Assembly: GCA_012800995.1 (NCBI GenBank)
Contig: JAAZIH010000232.1
Span: forward strand, 1 to 10,277
Length of the DNA stretch: 10,277 bases
From: Chloroflexota bacterium
Lineage (GTDB): Bacteria; Chloroflexota; Anaerolineae; Anaerolineales; Anaerolineaceae
Reading direction: 5' to 3'
The translations under genes and the position numbers were made by a program. Numbering within the stretch: the stretch's first letter is position 1; each line of letters starts with the position of its first letter. Under the pieces are notes generated by a model. It was not told the origin of the DNA. It did no database searches and saw nothing but the letters and a program-made list of their open reading frames with translations. Positions 2,646 through 10,277 of this stretch are shown here, piece after piece.

Positions 2646-4421
2646 CTAACGTTTCATCTTTGGATCGTAAGCGTCGCGCAAGCCATCACCAATAAAGTTG
2701 AAACCCAACACGGTCAGCATAATCAATGTGCCTGCGGGCAACCACATCCACCAATAGCTCTGCATTACGTGCGCGTCAGATGCCGTGTTAATAATGCTAC
2801 CCCATGAAGCTTCAGGGTATTTGATACCCAAGCCCAAAAATCCTAATGTCGCCTCTGAGATGATAATACCTCCCAGACCTGCTGTTGCCGAAACAATAAG
2901 CAATGGCATCACATTTGGAACAAGGTGGCGGAAAATGCGCCTTGTGGTTCGAATACCGGTCGCTTCGGTAGCTACCATGAAGTCTTGTTCGCGGAGGCTC
3001 AAAATTTGTCCGCGAACAACCCTGGCAATAGGAGTCCAACCAAGCACGCCTAAAATAGCCATCAGTAAAAAGATACGTTCTTTAGATCCAACTTGTAATT
3101 TATCCATTACCGAACCAAAAATAATCACGATCGGGTAAAAAGGAATACTGTTAAACAAGTCTACGAAACGCATCATAAGAGTATCTACCACACCACCAAA
3201 GTAGCCGGAGATACCGCCGAAAACCACACCGATAAGCATCTCGATGATGATAACCACAAAGCCAACCATAAGAGAGATACGCCCACCATACATCAGGCGA
3301 GTGAGCAAATCCATACCGTTATTATCCAAACCCAACCAGTGATTTTTGGATGGTGGTTCGAAGGTTCGAATAACTTCAGTATCCTTATCCCTCATAATTG
3401 TATAGTTTTGGTTGACAACAACTATCTTATAGTGGACTTCCTGGCCATCTTTATCCGTGAAATAGAACTCATCCCCTTTTGCAATCATTGTCTCACGAAC
3501 AGTGTCTTTGAATTCAACGCTCAAAAAAGCATTTGCATCCAGAGGGTTGACAATAATATCGGAAATTTGAGCAAAGCCTGCGCCACTATCGTCAAAAACC
3601 GTACCGCTCTTTCCATCTATTTCAATCGTAAACTCACGATCTTCTACCTGAAATGTGTCTTTTTCATCAGCAATGGCATTCGCTACAGCAAGCTTAAAGG
3701 CATGAGATTGGACAAACTTGTCATCAGCTTGCTTATAAGCATCAAAAACGAAGGTTGAAGCCAATGCGATTTCTTTTTCAGTTGAAATGGATTTAACTTT
3801 CATTCCAGTGATGATGTATAGCACATCGTCAAAAATGAAGCTTCCGGCTTTTTTATTCGCTTCGTAAGCTTTTATGAACTCTTCGGATATAGCCGGGTCA
3901 TTTTTTGGCAATTGACCCAGCGGGTCTGTTTTTACGACAACTTCAAGTTTCGTTATGCGGTTAAAGCCTGGAACAAGTTCCACATAATAGAACTCACCAT
4001 TAGCAGAGCTAAAGTCTGCTTTCCCCTGTCCTTTGGCAAAAAGATAAGCAGCGCGGTCGGCGGAACCGAAGGTCTCACCATCAGCAACAGTGTAACGGTC
4101 TTCAGTATTATAGATAGCACCTGCAAATTCACGCGACATGGTCTTCATTCCCTTGAAGACCTGTGTTTGTGTATACGGGGAAAACACTGGCCCCAGGAAT
4201 GAGAACGTGAACATGATTGCCAGGATAATCAGACCCACAACGGCAAGTTTATTGCGGATGAAGCGTTTAAAGACTAACATACCAGGTGATAAAACCTTGA
4301 CACGACGTTGGTCATCAAGCGCCATCTCTCCAGGTGTGGTCATTGGCAATCCATCGCTACCAAGCTGTGCATCCAAAATTTCTTCAACTTTATCTAAAGT
4401 TTGTTTGTATTTGTCACTCAT
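2646..4421 (-). CDS. oppC: OppC-type ABC importer permease with large extracytoplasmic insertion (591 aa)
   Basis: The second channel-forming permease, about twice the usual ~300 aa. The N-terminal OppC_N-like part has the cytoplasmic FKRFIRNKLAVVG motif (51-63) and TM1 (about 59-81). Normal OppC resumes at HWLGLDNNGMDLLTRLMYGG (361-380), followed by five further TM helices. The EAA coupling loop is at about 480-503 (ATEATGIRTTRRIFRHLVPN), with LGFLGLGI (526-533) and a DGLRDAYDPKMKR end. Residues 82-355 are an insertion in the loop after TM1, which should face outside. It is hydrophilic, lacks cysteine, and seems to hold four degenerate units starting near 121, 180, 240 and 306. The flanking permease parts are intact, so this is not a frameshift product. 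The ATG at 4421 follows the oppB stop by 13 nt, with an AAAGG/GGTG-rich ribosome site. Confidence 0.95.
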   Translation of the reverse strand: MSDKYKQTLDKVEEILDAQLGSDGLPMTTPGEMALDDQRRVKVLSPGMLVFKRFIRNKLAVVGLIILAIMFTFSFLGPVFSPYTQTQVFKGMKTMSREFAGAIYNTEDRYTVADGETFGSADRAAYLFAKGQGKADFSSANGEFYYVELVPGFNRITKLEVVVKTDPLGQLPKNDPAISEEFIKAYEANKKAGSFIFDDVLYIITGMKVKSISTEKEIALASTFVFDAYKQADDKFVQSHAFKLAVANAIADEKDTFQVEDREFTIEIDGKSGTVFDDSGAGFAQISDIIVNPLDANAFLSVEFKDTVRETMIAKGDEFYFTDKDGQEVHYKIVVVNQNYTIMRDKDTEVIRTFEPPSKNHWLGLDNNGMDLLTRLMYGGRISLMVGFVVIIIEMLIGVVFGGISGYFGGVVDTLMMRFVDLFNSIPFYPIVIIFGSVMDKLQVGSKERIFLLMAILGVLGWTPIARVVRGQILSLREQDFMVATEATGIRTTRRIFRHLVPNVMPLLIVSATAGLGGIIISEATLGFLGLGIKYPEASWGSIINTASDAHVMQSYWWMWLPAGTLIMLTVLGFNFIGDGLRDAYDPKMKR

Positions 4422-4434
4422 GTTTCACCAACCT

Positions 4435-5424
4435 TTAGTTTACTCTCACGCGGGGATCTACAACAGCGTACATGATATCCGCAATAAGCAAGCTAATCTG
4501 AGTGAGCAGAATCAAGAATGTTGTGTAGAACATCGCAAAAGGAATGTCTCCCTGTTGCATAGCACCGAATGAAATATAACCAATGCCAGGAATTTGATAC
4601 ATTGTTTCTGTAATCATTGAGCCACCGAACATTGCAGGTAAAAGTGTACTCATGTAGCTTACTAAAGGAATAAGCGTATTTCTGAAAGCGTGTTTGTTAA
4701 TAACTACCTTCTCAGAAAGACCCTTCGCGCGTGCAGTGCGAATATAATCCGAGTTTAGGACCTCAAGCATATTCGTGCGGGTATAACGCATCAAGCCACC
4801 AATTGAAAGCATCATCAAGGTAACAACTGGCAAAGTCATATTCCGCGCCATATCCATAATTTGTTGGGGACGTGTCATGGTCGAGTAGAACCGGCTGGTA
4901 ATACCATACAAGGGAAACCATCCAAGTTTGATACTAAAGACATATTTCAACAAAGTTGCCAGGAAGAATGTTGGCAACGAAAGTCCAGCCAGGGCAAATA
5001 CGGTAATCGCATAGTCCACGCCAGAATATTGCTTGCGTGCTGCCAGGATGCCTAACGGGATAGAAATCACAATTTCCACTATAAAAGTGATTATGTTTAA
5101 GACAATTGAATAGGGGATGACCTCCTTGAATTTTTCAGTCACAGGGACGTTATAAATAAAGGAGATACCAAAGTCACCACGGATTGCATTTTTGAGCCAT
5201 CCAAAGTAACCAGGAACGATACCCACGTCAAGGTGATAGACTTTATTTAACTCATCTATCCACTCTTGGTATGTCCGCATGCTCTGCGGGTTAGCCGCTC
5301 GTTCTCGGGCGATTGTTTCAACATAAGAGCTGGGCATACTGCGAATGACACCATATACAATCATCGCCCCAAAGAACACAATAAAAATACCAAGGAAAAC
5401 TCTTCGAATTATGAAATTACTCAT
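4435..5424 (-). CDS. oppB: OppB-type ABC importer permease (329 aa)
   Basis: Integral membrane subunit that forms half of the peptide channel with OppC. It starts with the typical amphipathic, basic N-terminus (MSNFIIRRVF). Hydrophobic segments are at about 9-28, 104-128, 137-163, 198-217, 248-272 and 298-322, giving the six TM helices of the family. The cytoplasmic EAA-type coupling loop, which contacts the ATPases, is at about 225-254 (SDYIRTARAKGLSEKVV, then NKHAFRNTLIP). The C-terminus AVVDPRVRVN is typical of the family. Length is normal, unlike its partner OppC. The ATG at 5424 is preceded by AAGGAAG (5440-5434) with about 9 nt spacing, directly after the attenuator. The gap to oppC is 13 nt. 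Confidence 0.95.
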   Translation of the reverse strand: MSNFIIRRVFLGIFIVFFGAMIVYGVIRSMPSSYVETIARERAANPQSMRTYQEWIDELNKVYHLDVGIVPGYFGWLKNAIRGDFGISFIYNVPVTEKFKEVIPYSIVLNIITFIVEIVISIPLGILAARKQYSGVDYAITVFALAGLSLPTFFLATLLKYVFSIKLGWFPLYGITSRFYSTMTRPQQIMDMARNMTLPVVTLMMLSIGGLMRYTRTNMLEVLNSDYIRTARAKGLSEKVVINKHAFRNTLIPLVSYMSTLLPAMFGGSMITETMYQIPGIGYISFGAMQQGDIPFAMFYTTFLILLTQISLLIADIMYAVVDPRVRVN

Positions 5425-5554: not shown

Positions 5555-8020
5555 TTAGGGTGTGGGTACCGTTTCAAGAAGTTCGATGTCATTCATCCAG
5601 CCCCAGAAAGTGGTGATATCGGGGGTTAGAGTGCTTAGAACGATACGTTTTGTGCTAAAGATGGTTGCATTTTGGCGCTGGTAAGTGGGGATTTCCACTG
5701 CCCAGTCAATAACCACATCCAAAGCCTGCTTGTAAACTGCTTTGCGATAGTCCTGGTCATCAGACATGCGGGCATCCATGATGTACTGATCCAATTGTGA
5801 ATCGCGGATGTGATAGTGATTGGAGTCGGTTCCACCTTCGCCAATAACGTTGTTGCTGTGATAGACCTGGTACATATCTGGGTCAATGGTTGAACCCCAG
5901 GCAGCAGTCCACATTTCTTGCAGACCGGAATCCAAGGCATTCCAAAGGATATTAGAGTCAGCAGGATCGTTAATGATCAGTTCAATACCAATCTTTTCCA
6001 GGTCAGCTTTTGCGTCAGTGATGATAGCAAATGCAGGGTGGTCGCCGGTACCATCACCAGGAACGATCAGTTCATAAGCCATCTTTGCGCCTGCAGGAGC
6101 CGCGACAGCCTTGCCACCTTCAATTGTGTAACCAGCAGCTTCAAGATAGCCTAAAGCAGCCTGGCGGGCAGCCTCGTATTTATCTTCGGGTGCCATATCA
6201 GCGGTGTAGATAGGATTACCTTCAACATCAACCGAGAAGGCCAGTTGATAGTCATCATCGGTAGGTTGAGGAGCAGCCCAGCTGGTGTTAGAGATGGGGT
6301 AATTGATAACAGAAGCAAACTCACCGTAGTAAGAAGCTATAGCAACATCGCGGCGGATTGCCAGAATGGTTGCGAATGCTTTGCGCAAGTTCTTTGATGC
6401 GTCAGAGCCAGGATCGCCGGCGACATTGACGGTATCAGCATTAATACCAATGTAACCGTAACCAAGGTTGTCAACTTTAATCAAGGTAATGACATCACCG
6501 GTAGTTTCGCCATTGCTGTTGTAGCTCATAACTTCCTTGAAGCGTTCCATGTTAAAGGAGAGTTCGCCAGCATCAGCATCGCCAGTGTTCAAAGCTGAAG
6601 CAACATCACGTGAGTCAGTTTCTTTGAATTGAATCTCGCGAATCTTGGGGCAGCCCTTGTAATAATATTCATTGGCTTCAAAGCGAACAATACGGTTGTC
6701 GTATTCAACAAATTTGTAAGGACCAGCACCCATAGGTTTGCCGGTAAGGCTTTGTTGTTTGCTCAGATCACCAAAGGGGAAACCAAACTTGTTGTTTTCG
6801 TAGTCATAAAGCTCTTTGTCACCATAGTAGTGCATGGGTGTAATACTAATACCCAAAATGGAGTAAACAGCAGGTGCTTCAAAACCATTGATAACAACTT
6901 CAATACTGTAATCGCTGGTTTTCTTGATGCCAGCGATGTTAGGCACGCCTTCACCACCAGTTTCTTTGTCTTTGGGACCCCATTCTTTGATGAACTCGGT
7001 CTCAACGATATTCAGGATATCGGTGTTATTAGTGGCGGCTTCGACTTCCCAGGCGGTAGCGAGGTCGCCTTCGTAGGCTAAGGTGATTTCGCGGTTGTAG
7101 TCTTCAGCAGTTGGGAATTGTTCAACCATGTCATATTCGTCGCCAGAAGCAGCGATGAATTTGTAGCCAGCTTCTTCGGGGCATTCTTCGTCTTCGCCAA
7201 CTTCTTCGGCACAGACAACATCACCAAAGCCCCAGAGGACCATACCGAGCACAGCCTGCAAACCTTCATTAGCGCGAACTTCGTCTGCAGTTTTGTAGAT
7301 GAATGGCTCAGCGTAGTTATCAGCATAGTTATTGGTCACATAGTCAATAATAGCTTGGGATTCTCTCACACCAAATGCTTCAATTTCAGCCCAGTAAGCA
7401 TCTTGAAGTTCCTGGGTCCAGGCATCAGATGAGGACCATTCGTGATCAGGGCCAGCCTCGTAGATATCCTTGGCGTATTGAGTATAGCGCTCTAAAACCG
7501 CTGTGGGGGTTTGAGTTTGATATTCCTTTAGACCAATAATCTTATAGGAACTAAGGCTCGTTGAACCAACATAGGACGGATCCAGATAGGTATAGTAAGT
7601 GAAGATGATGTCATCTGCAGTTACGGGTACACCGTCTGAAAAATGCATGTCTTTACGGATTTCCGCTTTGTAGGTAGTGCGATCAGTATCTTTATCATAA
7701 TCCACGCTCAGGTTAGCAGCACCCTTATAGGTATACTTCGTGTTGTTATAGACGTGGGTTTCACCTTTGATACCGTTCATTATAATCTGACCTAAACGGT
7801 CGGTGGTCATAAGACTTATCTGGGTCATACCTGCAACGTCGGCATCATAGGCAGTATCAGAAAAAAACGGGCTAAATTTCTCTGAAAAGCGACTGTAGGC
7901 GACAACCAGAGGGGTGTCAATTGTCGGGGCATCGGCTCGCTTCTTGCCACAAGCAGCCAACATACTACCCAACATTACCACGACAATGACAAGGGATAAG
8001 ATTCGTGTAAATTTTTTCAT
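5555..8020 (-). CDS. oppA: OppA-type substrate-binding lipoprotein with large insertion (821 aa)
   Basis: Extracytoplasmic solute-binding protein of the peptide/nickel family (SBP_bac_5-like). It binds the transported peptide or other oligomer and passes it to OppB/OppC. The N-terminus MKKF, a hydrophobic stretch and lipobox LAAC (Cys24) mark a lipoprotein anchored after signal peptidase II cleavage. Family landmarks: HFSDGVPVTADDIIFTY (126-142), GAGPYKFVEYD (431-441), an EANEYYYKG segment (448-456) and GSTIDPDMY (709-717). At 821 aa it is about 250 residues longer than a typical OppA. The excess is mainly at about 168-360, between the LSSYKIIGLKEY region and GIKKTSDYSIEV, plus smaller additions. 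The insert is acidic and has Cys270 and Cys280, close enough for a disulfide loop. A lone Cys457 follows in KGCPK. First gene of the operon, with a consensus promoter and a strong ribosome site. Substrate unknown; non-peptide oligomers are possible. Confidence 0.93.
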   Translation of the reverse strand: MKKFTRILSLVIVVVMLGSMLAACGKKRADAPTIDTPLVVAYSRFSEKFSPFFSDTAYDADVAGMTQISLMTTDRLGQIIMNGIKGETHVYNNTKYTYKGAANLSVDYDKDTDRTTYKAEIRKDMHFSDGVPVTADDIIFTYYTYLDPSYVGSTSLSSYKIIGLKEYQTQTPTAVLERYTQYAKDIYEAGPDHEWSSSDAWTQELQDAYWAEIEAFGVRESQAIIDYVTNNYADNYAEPFIYKTADEVRANEGLQAVLGMVLWGFGDVVCAEEVGEDEECPEEAGYKFIAASGDEYDMVEQFPTAEDYNREITLAYEGDLATAWEVEAATNNTDILNIVETEFIKEWGPKDKETGGEGVPNIAGIKKTSDYSIEVVINGFEAPAVYSILGISITPMHYYGDKELYDYENNKFGFPFGDLSKQQSLTGKPMGAGPYKFVEYDNRIVRFEANEYYYKGCPKIREIQFKETDSRDVASALNTGDADAGELSFNMERFKEVMSYNSNGETTGDVITLIKVDNLGYGYIGINADTVNVAGDPGSDASKNLRKAFATILAIRRDVAIASYYGEFASVINYPISNTSWAAPQPTDDDYQLAFSVDVEGNPIYTADMAPEDKYEAARQAALGYLEAAGYTIEGGKAVAAPAGAKMAYELIVPGDGTGDHPAFAIITDAKADLEKIGIELIINDPADSNILWNALDSGLQEMWTAAWGSTIDPDMYQVYHSNNVIGEGGTDSNHYHIRDSQLDQYIMDARMSDDQDYRKAVYKQALDVVIDWAVEIPTYQRQNATIFSTKRIVLSTLTPDITTFWGWMNDIELLETVPTP

Positions 8021-8261: not shown

Positions 8262-8813
8262 TTATTCTGTCTCATGGACAATTTCTTTTATTTTCAATCC
8301 TTTGTTTAGCATCCAGGCATAAACAGCAATGCCAAATCCAATTAGATTACCCAGAAAAAAGACGGAATCAGATCCTTGCTTTGTTTTCCAGAAAAAAACA
8401 AAGTAAATAACCATGCCAATTAAAGATATCGCAGTAAAAATAATCGTCAGCAGTGTCATAGACTTTAACCGATGAAAACTTAGCCCGACCTCTTCAAGTC
8501 GCAATAGTTTTTGTTTGCGAGGCAATCTAAAAACCGCAAAGCCCCAAAACACCAGAGGGATAAATGTTGCCGTATAGGGAATACTTACATAAAGCGTGCG
8601 TGTTCCTGGGTTGTTGAGGAAACCCAACGCGATGTGGATAACTGCTATCAAAACAAACAGAGTTATTTGGATAAACCGGTAATGGCTTAAGCCTTTTTGG
8701 TCAAGAGAAACTTCATAAAAATTGCCGCGGTAAACCATTTTTCGTGTTTCGCGACCCTGATCATCATACTCGTAAATAGTCTCGTATGCATTTATGTATT
8801 TTTTACGACTCAT
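8262..8813 (-). CDS. four-TM membrane protein of unknown function (183 aa)
   Basis: Not assigned to a known family. The polar N-terminus (1-45) contains YEYDDQGR (14-21) and MVYRGNFYEV (26-35). Four hydrophobic segments follow at about 46-67, 74-96, 119-142 and 150-168. A basic loop between TM2 and TM3 (RLPRKQKLLR, 96-105) suggests that loop and both termini face the cytoplasm. The ATG at 8813 overlaps the end of the 84-aa gene by 11 nt in a different frame, and its Shine-Dalgarno is weak, which suggests translational coupling. It is the last gene of the upstream operon. No clear terminator was seen after it. The N-terminal DDQGR-x4-M-x3-G pattern recurs in the 90-aa protein at the end of the downstream operon. 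A transporter-associated role is inferred from position only. Confidence 0.85.
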   Translation of the reverse strand: MSRKKYINAYETIYEYDDQGRETRKMVYRGNFYEVSLDQKGLSHYRFIQITLFVLIAVIHIALGFLNNPGTRTLYVSIPYTATFIPLVFWGFAVFRLPRKQKLLRLEEVGLSFHRLKSMTLLTIIFTAISLIGMVIYFVFFWKTKQGSDSVFFLGNLIGFGIAVYAWMLNKGLKIKEIVHETE

Positions 8814-9057
8814 CGTCCATATCTCTTAAGCGTTCATATTGAGAGTCTTGCGCGTGGCGATCTCTTGATTCCTTGGCAAAGGTAAAAATTCCCAACATGC
8901 CAAGAAATAAACCACTGACTAAAAAAACATATGTTAAGAGATCAATCCATAACCAGGCTGGCAGAAATTCTGCCAGCCTTAGCGCTGGAATGATAACACT
9001 CAACACCAACAGAGTGCCACCAACAATGATCATCGTTTTGGAACTAATTCTAAACAA
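8803..9057 (-). CDS. small two-TM membrane protein (84 aa, TTG start)
   Basis: Function not recognised. Two hydrophobic segments (about residues 8-26 and 38-60) are followed by a highly charged tail (KESRDRHAQD onward) ending in DDES, so it should be a small inner-membrane protein. The TTG start is supported by AAGGA, which overlaps the TAA stop of the preceding ATPase gene and sits 8 nt before TTG. An in-frame ATG eight codons later (9033) lacks a comparable site. The gene starts 11 nt after the ATPase stop and overlaps the next gene by 11 nt, so it looks translationally coupled to both. Proteins of this shape (IIVGGTLLVLS, then SGLFLGMLGI) seem familiar to me from operon ends in Chloroflexota, but that is memory, not a search. 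The gene contains a 25-bp near-palindrome at 8955-8979. It could be an accessory subunit of the upstream transporter or simply a membrane protein in the same transcript. Confidence 0.8.
   Translation of the reverse strand: MFRISSKTMIIVGGTLLVLSVIIPALRLAEFLPAWLWIDLLTYVFLVSGLFLGMLGIFTFAKESRDRHAQDSQYERLRDMDDES
8955..8979. repeat. 25-bp palindrome inside the 84-aa gene
   Basis: AGGCTGGCAGAA (8955-8966) is exactly complementary to TTCTGCCAGCCT (8968-8979), leaving one unpaired central base: a perfect 12-bp inverted repeat. It lies in codons for LRLAEFLPAW, the loop between the two TM segments. No T-run follows on either strand, so it is not an intrinsic terminator. In RNA it could form a strong hairpin once a few central bases open as the loop. 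In DNA it could be a dimer-binding site. Confidence 0.75.
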
Positions 9058-9068
9058 AGACCGTTTCC

Positions 9069-10175
9069 TTATTCTTCGGCGGTAAATTTGCGATGAATAG
9101 GTCTCTCTCTAAACAACCAACACGCAACCAGATGGTCATCACCCAAATCGAATTCCGGTGGGCGCTGTACTTCACACAAATCCGAAATCATATGCGGACA
9201 ACGCGGATGGAAACGACAACCCTTAGGCGGTGTCACCAGGCTTGGTGGTTCCCCAGGTGGAACATCCTGGAACTCATCCACGTTCTTAGGATCAGGATCA
9301 GACGTAGCAGCCAAAAGAGCGTGCGTATAAGGATGCGCAGTCTTATTAATGAGGTCGCTTTCCTGGGCTTTTTCAATCACTTGACCGGCGTACATTACAT
9401 AAATGTATTCCGAGAAGTAACGTACAGTTGCCAGGTCGTGAGTGATATAGATAACAGCCAGATGATGCTCCTCTTGCAAGGCGCGTAAAAGCTTGAGGAT
9501 TTCAACACGAACAGAAGCGTCGAGCATTGAAACCGGCTCATCTGCCACCAACAGGATGGGGTCCAAAATCATCGCTCGCGCGATAACAATACGTTGCTGT
9601 TGACCACCACTCAGTTGATGGGGAAACTTTTCAAGAAAGTCTTCCACTGGTGTCATACGGACTTCTTCAAGCACTTTTACAACGCGTTCAAAGCGTTCTA
9701 GTTTGTTTTTGACACCATTAATGATTAGTGGCTCTTCAAGAATAGTTCGCACGTTCATGAAAGGTGCTAAGGCACCATAAGGATCCTGTTGCACATATCC
9801 AATCTTGCGACGCACATTTTTGAGGGCATCAGCTTTGAGGTCATTAATGATCTCGCCGTCAAATTCAATTTCACCGCCTGTGGGTGTATTCAAACGCAAA
9901 ATTGTTTTCATTAAGCTGGTTTTGCCACAACCCGACTCACCAACAATGGCAATGGTCTCACCACGTTGAAGTTTTAAGTCTACACCATCTACCGCGCGTA
10001 CAAATCCAGCATGTTGAAAACCACGTTTACGTAGTTCAAAGTAGACCTTTAACCCGCGAATGTCCAGAACAAAACCATCATCAAGTTCATCTTCTGAGAT
10101 TTCAGAATTGTTGAATTCCCCGATAATCTCTTCAGGTTTTTGTTCAAATTCTTTTTCTTCGTATTGTTCTGTCAT
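9069..10175 (-). CDS. OppF/DppF-like ABC transporter ATP-binding protein of the upstream importer
   Basis: A 368-aa cytoplasmic ATPase that would power a peptide-type importer together with the OppD-like protein cut by the window edge. Visible motifs: Walker A GESGCGKT (79-86), Q-loop in VQQDP (Q130), signature LSGGQQQ (188-194), Walker B LLVADEP (catalytic E213), D-loop SMLD, H-loop H246. The C-terminal oligopeptide-transporter domain carries Cys320, 326, 334 and 352 (C-x5-C-x7-C-x17-C), one residue longer in the second gap than the other ATPases here. The frame is open 26 codons further upstream, but I chose the ATG at 10175: it follows AAGGTG with about 6 nt spacing and lies one nucleotide after the previous stop, whereas the longer form would overlap that gene by 77 nt. 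Residues 1-34 are an unusual, strongly acidic extension. Substrate unknown. The permease and binding-protein genes are presumably upstream of the window. Confidence 0.93.
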   Translation of the reverse strand: MTEQYEEKEFEQKPEEIIGEFNNSEISEDELDDGFVLDIRGLKVYFELRKRGFQHAGFVRAVDGVDLKLQRGETIAIVGESGCGKTSLMKTILRLNTPTGGEIEFDGEIINDLKADALKNVRRKIGYVQQDPYGALAPFMNVRTILEEPLIINGVKNKLERFERVVKVLEEVRMTPVEDFLEKFPHQLSGGQQQRIVIARAMILDPILLVADEPVSMLDASVRVEILKLLRALQEEHHLAVIYITHDLATVRYFSEYIYVMYAGQVIEKAQESDLINKTAHPYTHALLAATSDPDPKNVDEFQDVPPGEPPSLVTPPKGCRFHPRCPHMISDLCEVQRPPEFDLGDDHLVACWLFRERPIHRKFTAEE

Positions 10176-10176
10176 G

Positions 10177-10277
10177 CTATTCACCTTGTCCTTCATAGAG
10201 CCAGCAGGCAACCCAGTCATCGCCAAATACGACAGTAGGCGGTTCTTCTTCACATTTTTCGAAGCGATTTGGGCAGC
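10177..10277 (-). CDS. C-terminal fragment of OppD/DppD-like ABC transporter ATP-binding protein (cut by window edge)
   Basis: The last 32 residues of a protein whose 5' part lies outside the window. The frame reads CPNRFEKCEEEPP, then VACWLYEGQGE and a TAG stop. This is the end of the oligopeptide/dipeptide transporter C-terminal domain that follows the nucleotide-binding domain in OppD, DppD, OppF and DppF. The cysteines (in CPNR, EKCE and VACW) fit the last three of the family's four conserved cysteines; the first would lie just outside the window. The stop is one nucleotide before the ATG of the next ATPase, so the two genes are almost certainly an OppD/OppF-type pair in one operon. Family membership is clear. 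Calling it the D subunit is inferred from its position before an F-like gene. Confidence 0.85.
   Translation of the reverse strand, partial: CPNRFEKCEEEPPTVVFGDDWVACWLYEGQGE

Follow-up and report, generated by a model that had tools for sequence, protein, structure and literature searches.

The OppC permease subunit encoded in a 10,277-nucleotide stretch of Anaerolineaceae DNA (hereafter the window) carries a genuine, widely shared, repeat-built domain after its first transmembrane helix (TM1). We tentatively propose that the C subunit acquired this undescribed repeat arm on a single occasion, in a peptide-importer lineage whose OppA was already enlarged and which already possessed a 90-residue membrane partner. 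In the same account the arm co-diverges with the scoop of OppB, varies in length by its number of units, has spread across Clostridia and Anaerolineaceae, and was freed as a surface lipoprotein that would serve as an extra subunit of the same importer. Taken as a whole, this account is possible rather than probable, and its parts are graded separately below.

Place and repeat build of the OppC insert

The minus strand of the window encodes an oligopeptide-importer operon (oppA, oppB, oppC, oppD and oppF), as identified from open reading frames (ORFs), Pfam domains and family models; all window coordinates below refer to this strand. The oppC gene (positions 2646–4421) encodes 591 residues, with an OppC_N domain at residues 45–88 (48.9 bits, cut-off 23.9) and the BPD_transp_1 permease core at residues 398–591 (positions 2649–3230; 97.3 bits, cut-off 26.4). 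Between the two, Pfam returned only NAGLU_N, at E = 0.08 and below its cut-off. The protein has the features of an OppC-type permease of a type I ABC importer, including the six-TM fold of solved C subunits. The best 14 of its 18 family-model matches are to C-type subunits, and B-type models score at most 26 bits. The core is matched best by Opp4C (NF045476), a short model of 278 positions whose match is split in two around the insert. This match scores 332.4 bits, below the curated cut-off of 350, so that the equivalog assignment does not apply.

The sequence-only reading of this DNA had described a 591-residue OppC with an intact TM1, an insertion of about 270 residues and a conserved restart at HWLGLDNNGMD. 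Our analysis bears this out. TM1 is recovered as a predicted helix at residues 58–80 (positions 4182–4250) and by the OppC_N match, and the motif is the conserved restart of the core at H361. The insert, as delimited by the Pfam gap, the alignment and the model, covers residues 82–355, i.e. positions 3357–4178, in agreement with the 3350–4180 first given. The TM1–TM2 segment of C-type permeases faces outside. The solved C subunits that we found by sequence have 287–302 residues, which fits the earlier figure of about 300 for a normal OppC, and lack such a domain. When E. coli OppC (8z21_B, 278 residues) was aligned on our model with VIA-align, 274 of its residues were placed on residues 43–587. 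Hence, the excess length lies in the TM1–TM2 segment.

Searched against proteins on its own, the insert matched 122 of 1702 candidates at E ≤ 0.001, and a genome scan identified 78 loci, 74 of which encode an OppC longer than 540 residues with an alignable insert. The other four lack a usable insert: three are at contig ends (L059, L063 and L074) and one has an OppC of normal length (L078, Tissierellales). The number of matching proteins and of insert-bearing loci excludes chance or misassembly, and with homologues in many separate assemblies a sequencing or assembly artefact is practically inconceivable. Of the outcomes that the earlier reading had named as fatal, i.e. disorder, absence from homologues and artefact, none occurred. 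The repeat units, the cassette, the free lipoprotein and the insert-less sisters described below could not be seen by that reading.

We modelled the whole OppC with AlphaFold2 from an alignment of 115 homologues. The mean pLDDT was 88, and values of 80–95 per 10-residue block throughout the insert led us to reject a disordered segment. The secondary structure of the insert cycles through helix, hairpin and long strand, with helices beginning at residues 120, 180, 240 and 302. After a conserved base strand (residues 84–115, positions 4077–4172; mean column identity 0.71), the model and a profile of the unit delineate four tandem α/β units of about 60 residues: unit 1 (residues 116–176, positions 3894–4076), unit 2 (177–236, 3714–3893), unit 3 (237–298, 3528–3713) and unit 4 (299–354, 3360–3527). 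Profile comparisons matched units 1 and 3 at 95.7%, 2 and 3 at 93.2%, and 3 and 4 at 93.1%. The matches were weaker between units 2 and 4 (77.2%), 1 and 2 (60.0%) and 1 and 4 (7.8%). Comparisons with longer unit segments gave 97.1%, 90.3% and 74.1%.

We applied the unit model (consensus SVEFKAAFELAIAAGETSFEYDGETYTITRVGENYTISTEEPVALVSLIIVDP, 53 positions) to 83 OppC inserts, i.e. those of the window, of the 74 loci and of 8 of 116 longer database proteins. It recognized four units in 71 of the 73 inserts of ordinary length and three in the other 2. When the complete set, together with five lipoproteins, was shuffled once, it gave 4 unit matches in total. Three shorter forms score three units: L109 (538-aa frame), L110 (525) and L111 (584). 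The ten longer inserts (370–535 residues) have 3–6 clear units each, and their lengths are not shown to be strict multiples of 60 residues. When the 7995 best-sharing candidates were scored with an insert of 461 residues, 2 proteins matched, one with 100% identity to that insert. We found no Pfam family common to the insert: among 34 members scanned, at most three matched any one family (Lsr2, best E = 0.00037). The insert profile gave one chance match in the PDB (E = 0.43), and structure searches with the whole model (Foldseek/VIA) returned mainly matches to the TM domain, which fill the list.

Cassette partners, lipoprotein copies and history

The arm-bearing OppC is part of a conserved cassette, which comprises a multi-TM protein, long OppA, OppB, long OppC, OppD, OppF and a 90-residue one-TM protein. 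In the window these are u183 (183 residues, multi-TM, positions 8262–8813), oppA (821 residues, 5555–8020), oppB (329 residues, an ordinary length, 4435–5424, from its ORF and family models), oppC, the ATPase genes oppD (1428–2636) and oppF (410–1438), both from Pfam and family models, and u90 (137–409), recognized by the motif DDGRxIxxMNVEGMPWY. OppA has an SBP_bac_5 domain and the AppA/NikZ-like fold of cluster-C substrate-binding proteins, with a lipobox read from the sequence. It contains its own insert of about 200 mostly helical residues (161–358, positions 6947–7540).

Upstream of the cassette genes, the window encodes an OppF-like ATPase (positions 9069–10253). Its counterpart in locus L002 is 85% identical and adjoins the ORF of a second C-type permease, upstream of the cassette. 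An 84-residue ORF (positions 8803–9057) with two hydrophobic stretches has a weak Phage_holin_3_6 match below the cut-off and, among the loci, a BLAST match only in L002. The second C-type permease occurs in the window's own genome (L080, contig C247, 483-aa frame), and an ORF of L001 at 16327 is 90% identical to it. Read from its sequence, this permease has a different segment of about 195 residues between TM1 and the core, to which the arm profile gives no match (E = 0.15).

The small gene u90 follows oppF in 62 of the 63 loci with at least 3300 nt beyond oppC, the single miss being L078, and in 3 of the 15 loci with a shorter stretch. Among 121 genomes drawn from the window's family, 27 encode insert and u90, one the insert only and three u90 only. 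In the class of one clostridial carrier u90 occurs in 16 of the 17 genomes with the insert, and 12 further genomes have u90 without an insert match. We examined seven of the latter loci, the other five having weak u90 scores (E between 1e-5 and 5e-4). All seven (L102–L108) are A-B-C-D-F-u90 operons with a short OppC (open frames of 354–376 residues) and no detectable unit. The N-terminal motif of u90 is strongly conserved, and the gene closes the cassette in both Clostridia and Anaerolineaceae, whether the OppC insert is present or absent; across 39 members scanned, no Pfam family matched more than two.

The insert-less sisters also bear on the OppA insert. Five of the seven (L102, L103, L105, L106 and L107) encode an OppA helical insert homologous to that of the window (E between 2e-30 and 2e-34). 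Of the remaining two, L104 has a truncated OppA, and L108 encodes an OppA frame of 906 residues that does not match the window's OppA insert. OppA frames are shorter in the three-unit L109 (769 residues) and L110 (749) and match that insert weakly. Our expectation had been that the OppA and OppC inserts diverge together and depend on each other. Since the OppA insert occurs with a short OppC in the five sister systems, OppA does not need the arm, and we rejected an obligatory pairing of the two inserts.

In three loci (L005, L016 and L047), a lipoprotein ORF lies directly 3' of u90 and consists of the arm domain. It matches model positions 17–268 of 280 (E between 3e-50 and 4e-55), and its signal peptide and lipobox can be read from the sequence. 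L017 has a broken copy, which gives three intact and one broken among 78 loci; the layout also appears in L085–L087, which are the same contigs as L047, L005 and L017. A database search with one lipoprotein retrieved 20 proteins, one of them a 173-aa piece, and none has a Pfam domain. In a tree calculated from 104 domains, all 19 full-length lipoproteins go back to one origin (support 100/100) and sit on a long branch (1.74). The lipoproteins join the OppC inserts of L005, L014, L016, L017, L021, L047 and P0097 with support of 91/94, below the program's star, and this group of inserts holds all four loci known to have the lipoprotein gene. Because the lipoproteins group among OppC inserts, the arm domain was probably copied out of OppC into a free lipoprotein in some Anaerolineaceae. 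That relatives encode the same domain as a lipoprotein of the same operon is strong indirect evidence that the arm would be exported and fold autonomously. Together with the TM1–TM2 place and the confident predicted fold, it gives good support to the earlier suggestion of an extracytoplasmic domain by the channel mouth.

The insert profile was found in 4 of 201 genomes drawn from the Chloroflexota, all from the window's own family, in 28 of the 121 of that family, and in 17 of 291 from the class of the clostridial carrier. The named loci are nearly all from Anaerolineaceae/Chloroflexota or from Clostridia and their subgroups, with one labelled Cloacimonetes. The inserts of L012 and L013 are identical, although the contigs are labelled Chloroflexi and Candidatus Cloacimonetes; this is possibly a binning error.

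We inferred a tree from OppB, the OppC core and OppD, rooted on the single distant L078, a long-branch outgroup, with SH-aLRT supports from a quick search. The seven insert-less systems group together (98) opposite all 46 insert-bearing ones (94); the rows of L108 and L111 are long, and according to a program warning the join of L108 with the other six may be false. Between fixed alignment columns, the TM1–TM2 stretch has 46 residues in L078, 80–83 in the seven sisters, 245–252 in two three-unit forms and 306–318 in four four-unit examples. The simplest reading of the tree, which is not proven, would be one gain of the arm at the base. The arm is probably a later gain than the OppA insert and u90, because the insert-less sisters keep u90 and five of the seven keep the OppA insert. 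The arm might have grown through duplication of a hairpin that the sisters have in their short loop, an idea that is suggestive only and that we do not claim: this loop matches single units at 4–17% in profile comparisons, and 20 shuffled controls against unit 4 reached at most 1.4%. Anaerolineaceae occur in two places among the clostridial systems of the core tree, which suggests transfer between phyla (or misbinning). The inserts of three loci labelled Anaerolineaceae (L027, L033 and L036) group with clostridial ones, as do L027 and L036 in the core tree; a second transfer between phyla and misbinning are the alternatives here.

Divergence of the arm and its possible role

As far as sequences can tell, the insert is constrained yet fast-evolving, since its median dN/dS is 0.49 (567 computable pairs) against 0.14 in the core (698 pairs with usable core dS), with few pairs at or above 1. 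These values were obtained by the Nei–Gojobori method from pairs that are not independent. Sixteen of the 567 pairs have an insert ratio of at least 1 (maximum 1.65); among the 49 pairs whose insert dS is below 0.7, one does. The identity to the window is 62–100% in the permease core and goes down to 17% in the insert of the most distant form. Averaged over alignment columns, identity is 0.87 in the core, against 0.71 and 0.65 in the base strands and 0.50–0.58 in the units. The near-invariant positions of the insert belong largely to the repeat core and the base (F242, G326, S287 and F137 at ≥99%).

We then searched for the part of the importer whose divergence the arm follows. The distances of core OppA, OppB 101–329, core OppC and OppD, and their squares, were regressed out, and the residual divergence was scanned over 79 windows of 70 residues in OppA, OppB, OppC and OppD, with correlations that ignore phylogeny. 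The best window was OppB 41–110 in the full set (r = 0.56, 62 loci), OppB 21–90 in the 53 four-unit loci (r = 0.52) and OppB 61–130 in the 23 Anaerolineaceae loci (r = 0.51). In the 30 other four-unit loci, which are mostly clostridial, it was OppB 121–190 (r = 0.40), and OppB 21–90 came fourth (0.31). In a permutation test, OppB 28–100 gave r = 0.57 (p = 0.001) and the rest of OppB 0.03 (p = 0.30). No part of the arm dominates (0.26–0.43).

The best windows outside OppB were OppA 581–650 in the full set (r = 0.46) and OppA 121–190 in the four-unit set (0.38), where OppA 301–370, mostly in the OppA insert, reached 0.33; OppA 121–190 and 301–370 overlap the ends of this insert. For windows inside the OppA insert, r lay between −0.19 and 0.07 in the 62 loci, between −0.08 and 0.22 in the four-unit set, between 0.26 and 0.30 in Anaerolineaceae and between −0.33 and −0.12 in the other four-unit loci. 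The OppA insert also evolves fast (mean distance 1.23 against 1.62). Its partial Mantel correlation with the arm was −0.145, and −0.05 in a second run; that of the OppA core was weak (0.145, p = 0.038). Hence, the divergence of the arm tracks the TM1–TM2 'scoop' segment of OppB (residues 21–110, positions 5095–5364) better than the OppA insert. The earlier reading had suggested that the domain could receive substrate, gate entry or bind another surface component; any of these may apply, with the divergence data pointing to the scoop segment more than to the insert of OppA. The scoop is named after E. coli DppB, whose TM1–TM2 stretch holds a scoop motif that enters the DppA cleft, according to the excerpted text of PMC12136057.

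Because of this correlation, we favour an arm that lies beside the OppB scoop at the outer channel mouth and docks or clamps OppA, a reading to which we give about an even chance. The tandem-repeat arm would rise outward from the TM1–TM2 loop of OppC, stand next to the scoop segment and help to hold or orient the lipoprotein OppA during substrate hand-over. In some Anaerolineaceae, one duplicate would have left OppC to become a free surface lipoprotein. We infer the contacts with OppB and OppA, and the clamping itself, from the confident fold, the four-unit build, the TM1–TM2 place, the lipoprotein copy, the OppB correlation and the precedents of AmiC and DppB. Several observations count against docking. 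The arm evolves fast while the OppA core is conserved, unlike a pure docking face. The OppA insert occurs with a short OppC in the sisters, and OppA windows also score in the scan. Clamping also offers no obvious explanation for the free lipoprotein copy.

Fast evolution, the lack of a required pairing with the long OppA and the free lipoprotein suit instead a surface binder of a variable external partner, or a shield of the permease mouth against external agents. The partner could be a cell-wall or S-layer component, a peptide source or another surface protein, with the free lipoprotein as an extra binder or decoy. The variation in unit number, from three units to the longer inserts, points the same way, and there is a precedent in S. 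pneumoniae, where an external bacteriocin requires the AmiCD permease, but not AmiA, to kill, in the excerpted text of PMC10191383. The arm nevertheless tracks the TM1–TM2 segment of OppB, its base strands are more conserved than its units and no partner was identified. We consider a binder or shield rather unlikely, yet the leading alternative to docking.

The arm might also be a platform for the assembly or regulation of the accessory membrane proteins of the cassette, chiefly u183, rather than of OppA. The gene u183 is poorly conserved, with no Pfam family over the cut-off. Of 61 insert-bearing loci that include OppA and extend 1000 nt or more upstream, 58 have it, against none of the four insert-less loci with at least 850 nt upstream. 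However, the insert-less loci form one clade, so that this contrast may result from shared ancestry. The gene is often on the opposite strand, downstream or elsewhere in the locus, and L011, L027 and L036 retain the insert although u183 was not found there. We consider a platform quite improbable. With slightly lower probability still, the insert could be neutral, a tolerated loop that tandem duplication has lengthened and that is drifting: a dN/dS of about 0.5 and an insert identity to the window as low as 17% would fit, but an open, alignable domain is kept in 74 loci across two phyla, has near-invariant repeat-core residues and was duplicated as a separate lipoprotein.

Comparison with known importers

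Permease subunits with a folded extracytoplasmic insertion are already known from MalF and AmiC. In the maltose importer MalFGK2, the P2 loop of MalF is a large folded extracytoplasmic insertion in one permease subunit, sits between TM3 and TM4 and contacts the binding protein. To our knowledge, it is not a repeat. It belongs to another importer subfamily and differs in its place, since Pfam, the model and the alignment all put the insert of OppC after TM1 and not between TM3 and TM4.

The closest parallel is AmiC of S. pneumoniae (498 residues), whose residues 31–278 form ECD1 and ECD2 and were modelled to clamp the binding protein, as given in the excerpted text of PMC11192437. Like the OppC studied here, AmiC is an oligopeptide-importer permease in which a large extracellular insertion follows TM1. 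AmiC is a B-type subunit, homologous to E. coli DppB (excerpted text of PMC10191383). Hence, the large outer domain is here on the other subunit, a C-type and not a B-type permease, and it is a regular four-unit repeat, in a comparison with AmiC by description only. The scoop of DppB in E. coli DppABCDF is also a TM1–TM2 extracytoplasmic element of a peptide importer at the interface with the binding protein. In the excerpted description (PMC12136057) it spans about 30 residues of subunit B, as a short helical motif, while the arm is an additional element in subunit C, and OppB keeps its own TM1–TM2 segment alongside it.

Among the matches listed from the open-licence PMC literature, none describes an OppC insert of this kind. 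The cassette also adds two uncharacterized membrane proteins to peptide importers from Anaerolineaceae and Clostridia that are mainly known through metagenomes. The versions with zero, three and four units, the longer ones and the free copy make a natural series on extracytoplasmic permease domains, which could show their effects on the docking of the binding protein and on substrate hand-over. Compared with AmiC and MalF, four features are new as far as our searches show: the location in the C subunit, the construction from repeats, the series of lengths and the offshoot lipoprotein.
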